From: Planctomycetota bacterium
GTDB lineage: Bacteria > Planctomycetota > Planctomycetia > Gemmatales > Gemmataceae
Assembly: GCA_021324515.1 (NCBI GenBank)
Contig: JAJPIY010000175.1
Location: 1-45,261, forward strand
Direction of reading: 5' to 3'
Length of the DNA: 45,261 nucleotides
Position 1 is the stretch's first letter. Each line of letters begins with the position of its first letter. This document shows positions 4,235 to 15,799 of this stretch, piece after piece. Position numbers and translations under genes: made by a program. The notes beneath the pieces were generated by a model. That model was given only the letters and a program-made list of their open reading frames with translations. It did no database searches and was not told the origin of the DNA.

Positions 4235-4858
4235 ATGTACAGTGTTGTGTTGATGATGGCCTTGACCAGCGGCGGCGATGCGCCGGCGTTGGGAGGTTGT
4301 CGGGGCGGTTGCTATGGTTGCCACGGCTGCTATGGCTGCCACGGTGGCTGCTTCGGCGGACATCGCCGTCATGGCTGCTGCGGCTGCTACGGCGGTTGCT
4401 ATGGTTGCCACGGCTGCTATGGCTGCCACGGCGGCTGCTTCGGCGGACATCGCCGTCATGGCTGCTGCGGCTGCTACGGCGGTTGCTACGGTTGCCACGG
4501 CTGCTACGGCGGCCATGCGGCTCCGGTCGCCCCGCCTGTCGCGCCGGCGGCCCCGGTGGCTCCAGCAACTCCCAAGAAGACCAGCCTGGGAGAAAGCGCT
4601 CCGGCTACCTTGATCGTCACCGTTCCGGCCGACGCGCGCCTGAGCATCGACGGCGAGGCCACCACCTCGACGGCGACGCAGCGCGTTTTTGTCTCTCCGG
4701 CCCTGAATTTCGGCCGCGAATATCATTACACTTTGCAGGCCGAGTTCCAGAAAGACGGCAAGACCGTGACTTTGAGCAAGGAAGTTGCGGTCAAGGCCGG
4801 CGAGGAGACGCGCGTCCGATTTGACGCCGAAGATGCCGTCGAGATTGCCAGCCGTTAA
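4235..4858 (+). CDS. Cys/Gly/His/Tyr-rich repeat protein with C-terminal TIGR03000-type domain
   Basis: The ATG at 4235 has a GGAGG sequence 9 bases upstream, giving a 207-residue protein that starts MYSVVLMMALTSGG. Residues about 20-95 are two exact or near-exact 29-residue repeats and a partial third, built from GGCYGCHGCYGCHGGCFGG, HRRHGCC and GCY units. A Pro/Ala linker (VAPPVAPAAPVAP) leads to a C-terminal domain of about 75 residues beginning ATLIVTVPADARLSIDGE, containing TQRVFVSP and ending KAGEETRVRFDAED. That domain matches what I know of TIGR03000, a family seen only in planctomycetes, often behind low-complexity repeats. Function is unknown; the many Cys and His suggest metal binding or disulphide cross-linking in an envelope protein, which is inference. 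The N-terminus is only weakly signal-like. A strong terminator follows at 4882. Confidence 0.88.
   Translation: MYSVVLMMALTSGGDAPALGGCRGGCYGCHGCYGCHGGCFGGHRRHGCCGCYGGCYGCHGCYGCHGGCFGGHRRHGCCGCYGGCYGCHGCYGGHAAPVAPPVAPAAPVAPATPKKTSLGESAPATLIVTVPADARLSIDGEATTSTATQRVFVSPALNFGREYHYTLQAEFQKDGKTVTLSKEVAVKAGEETRVRFDAEDAVEIASR
4304..4519 (+). repeat. In-gene 87-bp tandem repeat (2.5 copies)
   Basis: Units lie at 4304-4390, 4391-4477 and a partial third from 4478 to about 4519. The period of 87 bases is a multiple of three, so the protein frame is kept and adjacent frames are also open across the block. The first two units differ at one third-codon position (GGT versus GGC before the TGC TTC codons), which points to recent duplication or ongoing homogenisation. 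Confidence 0.9.
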
Positions 4859-4881
4859 TGCGGATGCATCTTGCCTTGATT

Positions 4882-4917
4882 AAAAAGGGGGAGGAGTTCG
4901 CCTAACTCCCCCTTTTT
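4882..4917 (+). terminator. Rho-independent terminator after the TIGR03000-type gene
   Basis: AAAAAGGGGGAG at 4882-4893 pairs perfectly with CTCCCCCTTTTT at 4906-4917 across a 12-base loop, leaving a run of U at the 3' side of the stem. It starts 24 bases after the stop codon. It is also symmetrical enough to work from the other strand. Confidence 0.85.
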
Positions 4918-4937
4918 CGCTTTTTCCCGCCACGGTT

Positions 4938-5022
4938 CCCCCCCCACCCCAACCCTCCCCCACAAGGGGGGAGGGAACTCATTCTCCCTCCCCCCTTGTG
5001 GGGGAGGGTTGGGGTGGGGGGG
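4938..5022. repeat. Long inverted repeat of the CCCCAACCCTCCCCCAC family
   Basis: A left arm at about 4938-4976 (containing CCCCAACCCTCCCCCACAAG) is almost exactly complementary to a right arm at about 4985-5022 across an 8-base loop, a stem of about 38 bp. Related sequence occurs at about 25405-25460 and at 45060-45261, so this is a dispersed element. With the terminator just before it, it fills most of the 338-base spacer 4859-5196, in which I see no gene. It has no features of an insertion sequence. Confidence 0.8.
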
Positions 5023-5196
5023 AAGGGGAAAAAATGTCAAATCTCCCTGTGCCCAGTATTACGTTGCTTATCGCTATTTGCTTTTTGGGGCCTTGCACAC
5101 TATGCTTTTTTTAGAATGGCGATCCCAGCACTATTCCTGCCGAAAGCGTTTTGAGGTCCGAGTTATCCACGTCGCCCTTTTGGTATAGGGGCCGTT

Positions 5197-5751
5197 ATGA
5201 CAAGCGGGACACCGCATTCGATCCAGCATCGGCGGCGTGTTCGCCTCGAGCTTGAGGTGCTGGAGGCGCGCGATCTTCCTTCGGGGTCCGTGTTCGCTCT
5301 GAGTACGCCAGGGGATCCGCCTGCGGCAACCGTTGTCCTGGACATCCGCGGCACCGGAATGACGTTCGACCAACGAGGGCTTCCGGCGTCGTTCCAGGGG
5401 AACATCTACATCGGTCTACAGCCGCTAGGTCCGGTTATCGGCCAGTATGAAGAGACGCTTACTCCCTTGCTCCTGGACGGTCTGTTCATCGGGACATTAG
5501 GACAGGCCACTTTCACGTTCTTCCCCGGAGCACTCGGCGATCAGCCTCTGGCTACTCTTCACACCTTTGAAGTGTCTTTTCTCCAAGGCGTCATCCCCCC
5601 CATCGGTGCGCTGTACGTGAACAGCGTCGGGACGATTACCGGGGCCTCGGGGGCTGTCGCCCCTGTGCAAGGCGGCTTCACCAGCGCAAGTCTCCTCGTC
5701 TTGGGTCCGCCGTTCGCTTCGAATACTTGGGTGGATTTCACAGTGCAGTGA
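5197..5751 (+). CDS. Hypothetical protein with planctomycete LEVLEARDLPSG N-terminal motif
   Basis: The 184-residue product begins with a basic stretch (QHRRRVRLELEVLEARDLPSG). Its LExLExRxLPS pattern is frequent at the N-terminus of planctomycete surface or secreted proteins and is thought to be a targeting signal; that role is family knowledge, not shown here. No classical hydrophobic signal peptide is visible. The rest is rich in Gly, Thr, Phe and Leu with alternating hydrophobic residues, consistent with a beta-rich domain (for example GTLGQATFTFFPGAL and the C-terminal SNTWVDFTVQ). No known domain was recognised. The Shine-Dalgarno region is poor (GGGG at about 8 bases). A weak promoter-like pair, TTGCTT at 5078 and TATGCT at 5101 with 17-base spacing, lies upstream. 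The gene ends 33 bases before the terpene-synthase-like gene. Confidence 0.65.
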   Translation: MTSGTPHSIQHRRRVRLELEVLEARDLPSGSVFALSTPGDPPAATVVLDIRGTGMTFDQRGLPASFQGNIYIGLQPLGPVIGQYEETLTPLLLDGLFIGTLGQATFTFFPGALGDQPLATLHTFEVSFLQGVIPPIGALYVNSVGTITGASGAVAPVQGGFTSASLLVLGPPFASNTWVDFTVQ

Positions 5752-5784: not shown

Positions 5785-6867
5785 ATGCCCTTGGACAACG
5801 TTATGACGGGACGATACAATCGAGCTACCTTACCGGTTCCACCGACTAAAGAAAGGTCCGGTGATGATGGAATGGAGGGACGCTCCCCGGTGTCGCAAAC
5901 GTTTTTCCCATCTCCCGACGACATTCAGCGCGAAATAGCGCTGGCCCTGACCAAACCTCTCAGCCCTACTCTGGAGCACTGGAGCGCTCGCTATGCCCAG
6001 GTGGGCTATCGGCAGAACCATTATTATTTATGGCGCTGGGCCCGCCAAGGCGTCGAAGTCACTATGCTCTCCAGCGTCTCTCCCAAGCTGCGCGACGAGG
6101 TGTGCGATACCAAGGTCCTTGGCGTCATGCTCGACGTGCTGGTGGACGATGTGGCGGATCGCAACGGCGACGAAGCCCTATTGGAATGCCTGCTGAATCT
6201 GCCTTTGCGCGATGATCTTCCCGATTTGCACCGCTTCTCTTCCGCGGAACAGGCGTATGCTCAGCTGGTCCTGGAATTGTGGCAGGAAATTCATACGCGC
6301 GCCCGTCGGTATCCGCGCTACCAGGAATTCGCTGCCGTGCTGCGCTACGATTACGTGCAGCTGTTCAACACCATGCGCTATTCCCATCTGCTCAATCGCA
6401 ACCCTGCCCTGCTGAATGTGGTCGAGCACGACCTCTACTTGCCCCATAACATGCACATGATGGTCTCGGCCACGCTCGACCTGATGTGTTCGCCCCTCTT
6501 TGATGCCGCCGAGATCGGCCATCTGCGGGAGGCGGCCTGGCTCGGTCAATGCATGGGGCGCATCGGCAATCTGACTACCACCTGGGAACGAGAGCTGGAC
6601 GAAGGCGATTTTACCAGCGGCGTGTATGCCCGCGCCCTGATGCAAGGCGATCTGACTCTAAGGCACCTGCGCAACGTCGATCGCCAAGCGATCCGGGCCG
6701 CTATCGTCAACGGACAGCATGAAGCTCATTTCCTCGCACGCTGGCAGGAGCACCGCCAGGCAATTCTTGCCAAAAGCTCCCAGGTGAAGTCCGTCGATTT
6801 GGATCAGTTCGTCCTCGGACTGCAACGGCTGATTTGCTTGCACCTGGGCAGTCGAGGCCACAAATAA
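5785..6867 (+). CDS. Class I terpene synthase-like protein
   Basis: The 360-residue, mostly helical protein has the two metal-binding motifs that define class I terpenoid synthases, at the right spacing. An Asp-rich motif DDVAD (DDxxD form) lies at residues 121-125 in the context VLGVMLDVLVDDVADRNGDE. An NSE-like motif NLTTTWERE (N-x3-T-x3-E) lies at residues 262-270, followed by LDEGDFTSGV, which resembles the sequence after the NSE motif in bacterial sesquiterpene synthases. The 141-residue gap is close to the family norm. In the canonical motif the residue after Asn is usually Asp; here it is Leu. If active it would ionise a prenyl diphosphate with Mg2+. It could instead be a non-catalytic relative. 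The start at 5785 has GAGGA about 7 bases upstream; Met 30 is an alternative. It lies 101 bases before two hybrid kinases on the same strand, so co-transcription is plausible. Confidence 0.55.
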   Translation: MPLDNVMTGRYNRATLPVPPTKERSGDDGMEGRSPVSQTFFPSPDDIQREIALALTKPLSPTLEHWSARYAQVGYRQNHYYLWRWARQGVEVTMLSSVSPKLRDEVCDTKVLGVMLDVLVDDVADRNGDEALLECLLNLPLRDDLPDLHRFSSAEQAYAQLVLELWQEIHTRARRYPRYQEFAAVLRYDYVQLFNTMRYSHLLNRNPALLNVVEHDLYLPHNMHMMVSATLDLMCSPLFDAAEIGHLREAAWLGQCMGRIGNLTTTWERELDEGDFTSGVYARALMQGDLTLRHLRNVDRQAIRAAIVNGQHEAHFLARWQEHRQAILAKSSQVKSVDLDQFVLGLQRLICLHLGSRGHK

Positions 6868-12608: not shown

Positions 12609-14657
12609 TTAGCCACGACCCGAAGGCGAGCGCGTTCCCAACCACAACGCTTGGAAATGCGGCAGGGTGTCAAACGGCTGGGCGCGCTGTTCAATTGTCT
12701 CGCCGAGTTGCTGAATGTGGGCGGCGGCAAGCCGGCCCAGTTTTTTGCGCTGGGCCAGCACGAGATAGCCGACGCCTTCGGGATCGAGTTGCATCAGCCG
12801 GCAGCAAGTCGCGTCCACGGCGACGGGATCATCGCCCATGACGAGAACGCCGCTGGCCTTGGCCGTGCCGTTGAGGGGGCCGTCGCCCTCCATGCCGAGG
12901 ATGCCGTCGACAATCGCCAAATCCGGCGGGCGCGTAGCGGCGATGTCCACGATACTGTTATCAATACCACGCCAGTGCAATTCATTCTTGGGCCAACCAT
13001 AGCAGACGCCCGGCAACGTGCCGAACAGGTTCTTCAGCGACAGCGTCGCTACCGCCCAATGGTGCGTCTTCAACTTCGGCAGCGAGATCAACACGTCTGC
13101 TGTCGCCACCGTTTGCGCCAAGTAAAGGTACTCCAACCCGGTCAATCGGCCCAGGTTGAGGTGCTTGCTCGGTTCATCGTGATTGAGATCGATAAAGGGT
13201 GTTTGGTAATGGCGCAGGACATCGCCCAGACCGCTGGCGGAAACAAGATATTCGACGTTGCGCCAGTGTCCCGGCCCCTCGGCGACCAAGACTTCGGCCG
13301 CGCCTTCGCGGCGGCACAGCTCGATGACGGCGGCGACGACATGCGGATGCGTGTTGATGACCTTGTCGCGGTGATATTCGACAAGATTGGGCTTAAGGAC
13401 GACGCGCTTGCCGGCCAAGGGGACGCGTGTCCGGAAAAATTCGTACTGGCGGCGCAACACGTCGGCCAGGTCGGCATTATAATCGCTCACCGACGCGATA
13501 TGGACGTGCGCCTGCGGATCAAGGGGCCGCAGCTGCGTCAGTGCGTGAATGGCCAACCCCTGGACCTTGGCCTTGATGCGCTGGCCGAGGGAACGTTTTC
13601 CGGTTTTGTTTAGCCGCGAGCCGGAGGCGAGCGCGGCCGCGCTCGCCTCCGGCTCGCGGCTAAACGGTCTCTTGTCGCAACGCGCGGCCGCGCTCGCCTC
13701 CGGCTCGCGGCTAAACGGTCTCTTGTCGCAACGCGCGGCCGCGCTCGCCTCCGGCTCGCGGCTAAACCTCGGCAGACGAAAAGGATTGCCGCGGTCGATA
13801 TCGAGGGCCAGGACGGTCAATGCCTGCCGCAGCGGCGCTGGACGCAGCCACCATTTGTCCCGACGGGCCGTGTAGGCAGCGCGAATGCGATCTTCTAATA
13901 CCGTCACGGTTTCGCGGACGCCCGGAGCGTGTGCATAGACATCGAGGGCCAATCGCGCCCAACAGAGATGTTCAAGGTCGTCGTCCTTTTCGGCTACCCG
14001 ACGCAGATATTCGACACTGGCCGTGACGCCCGGCTCGTCGTTCTGGCCTTGCAAAGCCAAGAGCATCAGCGCCGTCGGCGTGGGGATGGGTTCGAGGGCC
14101 AGACCGAAAATACGGCGATTGCCATAATTGACGCCGCCTTGCTCCAGGATACGGTCACGGAGCAGTTTCAAGCCTTCCTCGACGCGCGGGTGCCGGCCCA
14201 ACCCGACGCGCCGCAGCGCCAGACACGCCCAGGCTGTCGGCTCAACCCACGAGAAATTGCCCTCGGCCCACGGCCAGCCGATCAAGCGATTATCGATGTC
14301 GCTAATGTCCTCGTCTTTACCGTCTATCTGTCGTCCTTTGCACGCCAGCAGGGCGGCAGCGATTCGTTGGAGGGAAGGGGCCGTATCGCCGAGCGTCGCT
14401 TGGGTGAAGAGGACGAGTGCCGTCGGCCAGATGGCTTCCGATCGGCCGCGCCCTAACCGATATGTCCCATCCGCGGCGGCGCATTGACGCAGCGCGTTTC
14501 GGCCCGCTTCGATGGCCGCAGCGAACCGTTCCGGACGGCGCGACAGGGCAAGCAAAGCCAGGCACGTCGGCTCCGGATGCGCGGGCTGATCGGCAGCGTA
14601 ACCCCAACCGCCGCCGGGACCCGCCATCGCTGCTAGATCATCGAACGCATCGTTCAC
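12609..14657 (-). CDS. Prenyltransferase/squalene-oxidase-like toroid fused to DUF362 domain
   Basis: The 682-residue product has two domains. Residues about 12-290 contain repeats of the alpha-alpha toroid type seen in prenyltransferases and class II cyclases (GGGWGYAADQPAHPEPTCLALLAL and NFSWVEPTAWACLALRRVG); no DxDD cyclase motif is visible, so catalysis is doubtful. Residues about 385-640 match the DUF362 family (KRVVLKPNLVEYHRDKV, DVLISLPKLKTHH, LSLKNLFGTLPG, IVDGILGMEGDGPLNG, MGDDPVAVDATC), whose function is poorly known. The linker at 298-350 is encoded by palindromic repeats and reads SREPEASAAA three times. The GTG at 14657 is chosen because GAGG lies 7 bases upstream. A TTG at 14735 overlapping the mcsB stop (TTGA) is an alternative that adds 26 residues. 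Translation is probably coupled or close-coupled to mcsB. The gene converges on the kinase gene with an 11-base gap. Confidence 0.8.
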   Translation of the reverse strand: MNDAFDDLAAMAGPGGGWGYAADQPAHPEPTCLALLALSRRPERFAAAIEAGRNALRQCAAADGTYRLGRGRSEAIWPTALVLFTQATLGDTAPSLQRIAAALLACKGRQIDGKDEDISDIDNRLIGWPWAEGNFSWVEPTAWACLALRRVGLGRHPRVEEGLKLLRDRILEQGGVNYGNRRIFGLALEPIPTPTALMLLALQGQNDEPGVTASVEYLRRVAEKDDDLEHLCWARLALDVYAHAPGVRETVTVLEDRIRAAYTARRDKWWLRPAPLRQALTVLALDIDRGNPFRLPRFSREPEASAAARCDKRPFSREPEASAAARCDKRPFSREPEASAAALASGSRLNKTGKRSLGQRIKAKVQGLAIHALTQLRPLDPQAHVHIASVSDYNADLADVLRRQYEFFRTRVPLAGKRVVLKPNLVEYHRDKVINTHPHVVAAVIELCRREGAAEVLVAEGPGHWRNVEYLVSASGLGDVLRHYQTPFIDLNHDEPSKHLNLGRLTGLEYLYLAQTVATADVLISLPKLKTHHWAVATLSLKNLFGTLPGVCYGWPKNELHWRGIDNSIVDIAATRPPDLAIVDGILGMEGDGPLNGTAKASGVLVMGDDPVAVDATCCRLMQLDPEGVGYLVLAQRKKLGRLAAAHIQQLGETIEQRAQPFDTLPHFQALWLGTRSPSGRG
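13609..13766. repeat. Palindromic repeat cluster inside the toroid-DUF362 gene
   Basis: Positions 13609-13664 form a perfect 56-bp palindrome, with left half from TTTAGCCGCGAGCCGGAGGC to GCGCGG. Two direct copies of a 51-bp unit follow at 13665-13715 and 13716-13766. Each starts CGGTCTCTTGTCGCAACGCG and ends with the right half of the palindrome (GGCTCGCGGCTAAA). The 51-bp unit is 17 codons, so the frame is preserved, and the block falls exactly between the two protein domains. It looks like a dispersed palindrome that landed in, or bridged, coding sequence. Confidence 0.9.
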
Positions 14658-14731
14658 GTTAAGACCTCGCCGGAAAAAGGGAGACGATATCCGGTGAAAG
14701 TCTAGCTCAGAAAAGCTGTAAATGCCTGCCC

Positions 14732-15799
14732 TCAATTTGGATGCGCCCCGGCTTCGCGGAGGCGCTGGCGGAGATAACTGGCCCGAGCGGCGTTACGCTC
14801 TTCACCGTCCAGAGAAGCGCCCTTCAATTTCTGCAAGTGGGCCGGCTGCGTGTAGATGAACAGCTCATTGACCGTGGGAATGGTGATCGCTTCGATCAGG
14901 TGCAGATTGATGCCCAGGCGGACGGCCGAGAGTAGATCCATTGTCTCTTCGGATGTCATCATCGTCGCCGAACAGAGAGTGCCGTAGGCACGGGCGATTT
15001 TGTCCTGCAAGCCTTGGCGGTTGTCGCGCAGCCAGCTCATGCGCGCCTGGCGCTCATAGGTGATGATCTGCGGAATGACGCTTTGGATCTCATTGAGAAT
15101 GCCGGTCTCGCTCTTGCCGAGGGTGACCTGGTTGGAGATTTGGTAAAAGTGGCCGGAGGCCCGGCTGCCTTCGCCGTACAGGCCACGCACCGCCAAATTG
15201 ATCTTCTGCAAGGCGCGGAAGACTTTCTCGATTTGCTTGGTGTATTCCAGGGCTGGCAGATGCAACATGACACTGGCGCGCATGCCAGTGCCGACGTTGG
15301 TGGGACAGGCGGTCAGATAGCCGAACTCTTCGCTGAACGCATAAGTGACGCGCTGTTCGAGCAGGTCGTCGACGCGATCAATCTCATGCCAGGCTTCCTC
15401 AAGACTGTAGCCGCTGCGCATGACCTGCAAGCGCAGATGGTCCTCCTCATTGACCATCAGGCTGATGGTCTCCTGGGGGGTGAGAGCGACGCCGCGCGGC
15501 CCGTCGGCGGCGGCCAACTCGCGGCTGATGAGTTGGCGTTCGACCAGGAGCTGACGGTCCAGTGACGACAGCGCCGGGATGCTGAGATAACTGAGCTTCG
15601 GCTCCAGTTCGAGCTTGGCGATACGCTCGCGCAGCAGCGCTTCGATCTCAGCCTTTTGCCCAGTGCTGGCGCGATTGGTAAAGGGGAAGGCGGCCAGATT
15701 ACGGGCCAGGCGAATGCGGCTGGAGATGACGATGTCGGACTCTGGCCCCGTCCCGCGCAACCATTCGCCACTGGTATGAGTCAGGCTGTCCAGATTCAT
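14732..15799 (-). CDS. mcsB: Protein-arginine kinase McsB
   Basis: The 355-residue protein belongs to the ATP:guanido phosphotransferase family. Members of this bacterial type phosphorylate arginine side chains on proteins and mark them for ClpCP degradation. Visible signatures are the ATP-binding SSRIRLARN (residues 26-34), the acidic active-site segment VNEEDHLR (116-123), YLTACPTNVGTGMRASV (161-177, with the conserved Cys 165) and GLYGEGSRASGHFYQISNQ (206-224). Near the C-terminus, the segment matching the allosteric phospho-arginine pocket motif RDxxRA reads RNAARA (335-340), an Asp-to-Asn change. The start at 15799 is chosen because its ATG overlaps the mcsA stop as ATGA and AAAGGG lies 9 bases upstream; an ATG at 15808 is too close to that site. 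The two mcsA genes lie directly upstream. No ctsR or clpC is present in the window. Confidence 0.92.
   Translation of the reverse strand: MNLDSLTHTSGEWLRGTGPESDIVISSRIRLARNLAAFPFTNRASTGQKAEIEALLRERIAKLELEPKLSYLSIPALSSLDRQLLVERQLISRELAAADGPRGVALTPQETISLMVNEEDHLRLQVMRSGYSLEEAWHEIDRVDDLLEQRVTYAFSEEFGYLTACPTNVGTGMRASVMLHLPALEYTKQIEKVFRALQKINLAVRGLYGEGSRASGHFYQISNQVTLGKSETGILNEIQSVIPQIITYERQARMSWLRDNRQGLQDKIARAYGTLCSATMMTSEETMDLLSAVRLGINLHLIEAITIPTVNELFIYTQPAHLQKLKGASLDGEERNAARASYLRQRLREAGAHPN

Follow-up and report, generated by a model that had tools for sequence, protein, structure and literature searches.

A palindromic array that lies in frame within a gene of a planctomycete MAG is, with little doubt in our assessment, a REP array belonging to a REP/RAYT family of this Gemmataceae genome; it lies in a disordered linker of a toroid–DUF362 protein whose two domains had been joined beforehand. 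The array occupies positions 13608-13767 (160 bp, minus strand) of the window, by which we mean the whole 45,261-nucleotide stretch of DNA analysed, and it encodes a 53-residue linker, residues 298-350 as counted from a GTG at 14657. The host ORF (minus strand, 12609-14735, 682-708 aa) stays open through the array; its likely start is this GTG, while the frame is open from a TTG at 14735. The N-terminal part (13768-14657, minus strand) is an alpha/alpha-toroid domain with a terpenoid-cyclase-like fold, for which Pfam gave no match; the nearest solved folds to the predicted toroid include squalene-hopene cyclases, drimenyl diphosphate synthase and complement C3d-type domains. The C-terminal part (12612-13607, minus strand) is a DUF362 domain (Pfam PF04015, 1.4e-50). 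The structure model of the host protein has a mean pLDDT of 85.5, with values below 50 nearly throughout the repeat-encoded residues, and the REP-encoded peptide, mildly charged and rich in Ala and Ser, is probably a mere flexible tether.

Read along the plus strand, the array opens with a perfect 58-bp palindrome (13608-13665), a REPIN-like unit of two inverted REPs that abut head to head with no gap (arms 13608-13636 and 13637-13665), the arm GTTTAGCCGCGAGCCGGAGGCGAGCGCGG being followed by its own reverse complement. Two extra minus-oriented half-sites follow (13687-13716 and 13738-13767), each preceded by an identical spacer (13666-13686 and 13717-13737, minus strand, reading ...GTTGCGACAAGAGACC), which gives a 51-bp period. 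Full copies of the 51-bp unit lie at 13631-13681 and 13682-13732, and a third, at 13733-13767, consists of the first 35 bases only. The original prediction had recognized a real array with two full direct units and a perfect palindrome, but placed the borders at 13609-13766 and made the palindrome 56 bp long; its SREPEASAAA, said to recur three times in frame, does so in the translation of the minus-strand ORF (FSREPEASAAARCDKRPFSREPEASAAARCDKRPFSREPEASAAALASGSRLN). Inspection of the sequence shows that two of the three palindrome frames are closed, by the stop in GTTTAG at one end and by that in GGCTAA at the opposite end; the single stop-free frame is the same on both strands. Folded as single-stranded DNA, it reaches -41.1 kcal/mol (z = -10.5). 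The source MAG comprises 4.92 Mb in 419 contigs, several of which end within such arrays, so that the count of 51-bp units may be wrong; the reading frame is independent of that count because 51 is a multiple of three.

Searching the genome for the half-site returned 239 copies at up to three mismatches, with none for a reversed control; none occurred in 100 dinucleotide-preserving shuffles of the window either, and chance or low complexity is thereby ruled out as the origin of the array. Each half-site is an imperfect hairpin (GCCGCG/A/GCC-GNA-GGC/GAG/CGCGGC; -6.5 to -8.7 kcal/mol as DNA) that folds only weakly better than its shuffles when taken singly (z about -0.7 to -1.6), with G, T, A and C all found at the variable base of the GNA loop; the single-stranded form of the GTTTAG family hairpin is GTTTAGCCGCGAGCCGNAGGCGAGCG. 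These are the size and abundance of REPs (20-40 nt imperfect palindromes in high copy), with GTTTA-GCC rather than GTAG or CGTC at the foot of the stem in the copies read. In the 78 array loci read, the commonest form is +-, the inverted doublet that serves as the dispersal unit of REPINs, and arrays of several units consist of one + and then at least one -, or the mirror image, with a single exception (+-+-). Many spacers copy the flank on the reiterated side and show no likeness to the opposite flank. By eye, unit lengths are divisible by three in about half of the arrays; a 42-bp unit recurs with unrelated spacers at L127, L130, L137, L162, L179/L188, L183 and L210. A near-identical spacer (GTGGTGGATTTACGATTGGGG) occurs in arrays L151, L164 (C99:4-82) and L204 (C406) despite their differing flanks, which suggests that arrays move as units.

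In-frame copies, found by listing the ORFs that span arrays and by Pfam, are rare: at only 4 of the 54 loci away from contig ends does a frame run uninterrupted across the array within a plausible gene, and one of these four cases is at the N-terminus only. The family is therefore mainly extragenic, in keeping with the earlier remark that palindromes of the dispersed kind are usually intergenic. Of the 78 arrays, 18 contain the stop of a coding-like ORF (at least ten as V-TAG), although some of these 18 ORFs are antisense or spurious. The host gene itself ends on a degenerate half-site with three mismatches (12611-12632, plus strand), whose TTAGCC provides the TAA stop codon as well as the final residues, RSPSGRG. 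Nucleotide similarity of the window to a congener (G001) and to a second copy of the gene on contig C174 ends at 12653, about 20 bp away, and this half-site thus lies at a synteny break.

The palindromic repeat is almost certainly spread by its own putative transposase gene elsewhere in the genome. Contig C91 (L151) carries at 4544-5450 a Y1_Tnp gene, scored above the cut-off, with repeat arrays on both sides; it encodes an HVH motif and YIEQNP, and its TAG stop lies within the repeat's GTTTAG. The closest NCBIfam model is NF047646 REP_Tyr_transpos (9.7e-15), at 54.7 bits, below the cut-off of 80 for this curated RAYT model. A Y1/HUH transposase gene flanked by the same REPs on either side is the arrangement of a REPtron (Di Nocera et al., PMC3733652). 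In G020, G029 and G016, which belong to other genera, homologues (63, 56 and 52% identity, respectively) are likewise flanked on both sides by near-identical versions of the repeat. The congeners G001-G003, in which repeat copies are mostly decayed, have no close RAYT homologue.

The original prediction left two routes open for the array, that it had joined two genes or that it had expanded within a linker. For the former, in which the palindromic repeat bridged a toroid gene and a DUF362 gene and so created the fusion, one can cite the position of the repeat exactly between the domains and the occurrence of toroid and DUF362 as separate adjacent ORFs in G044, G051 and G055, from other orders of the class. 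Against it, about 50 Gemmatales relatives encode the fusion in one ORF without such a repeat, their domains joined by unrelated linkers of 17-38 aa that vary in sequence and length, and only 7 of the 59 genomes searched, the source genome included, carry the repeat family at one mismatch. The fusion is therefore older than the repeat; joining by the repeat is ruled out as its origin, and we give the bridging account next to no credence. Expansion within the linker is supported: the native linkers of relatives with the same fusion are of similar length or shorter, and the array adds 38 residues compared with G001 and 35 compared with the gene copy on C174.

That second copy, which has the same upstream neighbours and about 85% nucleotide identity, may be a paralogue or may belong to a contig of a co-binned relative. 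Its linker shows no significant REP similarity (the score was reached by 154 of 500 shuffles); heptamer-like repeats, CCATCCG and CGGAAAG, are present in it (L209, 2668-2739). In another lineage (L105) the same linker holds an unrelated palindromic C/G-rich repeat in frame, with a second copy in the locus (6648-6697; agreement at 39 of 39 bases, and an inverted match that spans 50 bases), and the linkers of L102 and L087 contain the L105-like peptides PLPSGRGAGG and PLPSARGAGG. The toroid–DUF362 linker seems generally open to repeat insertion.

When the linkers of 54 homologues were aligned and compared with the repeat, only two, those of G002 and G001, both of the same genus, proved repeat-like. 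The G002 linker (TTAGCCACGATCCGAAGGGGAGCG) is in the register of the window's first half-site, with 4 mismatches in 24 positions where the next best linker has 9 (1 of 5000 simulations), and in the G001 linker both 8-nt termini survive, 53 bp apart and with the codon frame unchanged (0 of 20000 simulations). Judging from these sequences, a REP probably entered the linker before G001, G002 and the source species split, and the simplest reading is a single ancient insertion that has decayed in G001 and G002 and been renewed in the source species; decay in G001 is strong, which leaves a small residual likelihood of independent insertion at one site, or of chance resemblance.

The spacers point to where the renewed copy came from. 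Elsewhere in the genome, the spacer 24-mer GTTGCGACAAGAGACCGTTTAGCC is matched only at the locus on contigs C315 and C280 (2-3 mismatches; controls 0). No array but the one at that locus has a 51-bp spacing like the window's, and its 28/51/51 layout is also the same. An aspartate-semialdehyde dehydrogenase-like ORF, which from its sequence we take to be asd, ends there as LRKETV-TAG within a repeat, and the window spacer read in the asd frame would give LRQETV-TAG. Both contigs end inside the asd-locus array and look like the two sides of a single array. With 22 of 24 bases and the architecture shared, the window array is probably a recent copy of the array at the asd 3' end.

Two other accounts of the window array have to be weighed against this import. 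One old linker REP could have expanded in tandem on the spot, with nothing brought in from elsewhere, as would suit both the decayed REPs at the same site in congeners and the frequency with which arrays here grow by same-side flank duplication; yet the spacer is unlike either local flank (p = 0.38 and 0.78) while it and the layout correspond to those at asd, and we judge local expansion unlikely. Alternatively, assembly could have misplaced an array from another locus in the host gene, a suspicion fed by C280, C315, C346 and other contigs that end inside arrays and by the gene copy on C174, which is without a REP. Here the 3 differences in 24 bases between the window spacers and those at C315/C280 mean that the reads are not the same, the array has unique sequence on either side of it on the contig and an open frame, and congeners have decayed REPs at this exact site; we hold such an artefact to be very unlikely.

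On import from asd, the history probably ran as follows. A REP would have inserted into the toroid–DUF362 linker before the three species split and would have been tolerated there because one of the three palindrome frames is stop-free and the linker is unstructured. Later, in the source lineage, the linker would have received a copy of the array at the asd 3' end, itself grown by duplication of its flank; the route would have been either insertion into the old REP, mediated by RAYT, or recombination between REPs. As a tentative generalization, which we think possible but do not favour, REP arrays might act as shuttles, growing at the 3' end of a gene with its last codons copied into their spacers and then moving as units into the linkers of other genes, to be translated in a new frame. 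If so, the interdomain linkers of Gemmataceae would be repeatedly rebuilt from palindromic mobile DNA over species-level time.

Two further genes support the proposal, made from the window alone, that this repeat family is able to give rise to protein linkers. In panE (C201) an in-frame repeat separates ApbA (14-119) from ApbA_C (189-326; Pfam), and the G001 orthologue has a decayed repeat that is gap-free over 49 positions. A membrane-protein gene (C391) contains an in-frame repeat minus 8 internal bases, and the identical loss in its G001 orthologue points to one shared insertion; the orthologues in G002 and G003 (L248 and L249) showed no clear REP. The window linker, panE and the membrane protein all use the FSREPxAS frame, and together these three genes, unrelated to one another, show a repeat inserted in frame with the open frame conserved, as is characteristic of Rickettsia palindromic elements (RPE). 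A lipoprotein-like protein (L162, C63), with an array open through its N-terminus, is only a candidate fourth coding copy because its start codon may lie downstream. L168 and L178 were dropped as coding copies, their arrays lying upstream of the likely starts.

Could the REP-encoded linker have been selected as a functional peptide, beyond mere tolerance? The REP-derived stretches do stay in frame in congeners, in three genes, and the same linker has taken up an unrelated palindromic repeat in lineage L105. Set against this are linker sequences and lengths that vary freely among relatives, the decay of the REP sequences in congeners and the disorder of the linker in the structure model, and selection of this kind seems to us improbable, tolerance being the reading that we retain.

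REPs are small imperfect palindromes of high copy number, mostly extragenic and near gene 3' ends; those of the GTAG/CGTC type occur as inverted dimers and, along with the DNA that flanks them, as tandem clusters, and some copies lie inside ORFs, where they encode 20-82 residues, while the repeat terminus often provides a TAG stop (PMC3733652). The family described here is alike in all these traits and in having a RAYT-type gene flanked by repeats. It differs in its GTTTA(G) tag, in that its inverted REPs abut without a gap, and in the history of its coding insertion, for which congeners supply decayed counterparts and a likely donor gene can be named. The REPINs of Pseudomonas fluorescens move as inverted REP doublets, and some are in tandem, flanks included (Bertels and Rainey 2011, PMC3116915). 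Both features are common to the family here, whereas REPINs have a spacer between their REPs (71 or 110 bp start to start) and map mainly outside genes, and here the palindrome is a perfect 58 bp and only one arm is reiterated in the window array. The best-known coding palindromes, the RPE, have one open frame and, read in it, are found inserted in unrelated genes (PMC10969869). The likeness to these is one of behaviour only: RPE are about 150 bp long and often intragenic, while the repeat here is 58 bp, rarely intragenic and flanks a RAYT-type gene.

Intragenic REPs, tandem REPs with duplicated flanks and stops supplied by REPs are thus already published (PMC3733652, PMC3116915). The novelty lies in the GTTTAG-tagged planctomycete family itself, in coding copies that have decayed equivalents in congeners, and in asd as the likely donor; a literature search, with most subscription papers outside its reach, found no paper on this family. 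Coding REPs have usually been regarded as isolated oddities, and here the history of an insertion becomes readable, from an old in-frame REP and a fresh array with its donor to a RAYT-type gene kept in this genome and a second lineage's unrelated repeat. This makes it possible to test by what route bacterial linkers acquire sequence and for how long peptides derived from mobile repeats last.

The window contains two other repeats. Imperfect 87-bp tandem repeats with GGCTGCTAC-like units occupy 4304-4522, and a 35-bp palindromic tandem repeat (CCCTCCCCCCCTGTGGGGGAGGG) lies at the contig end (45141-45261).
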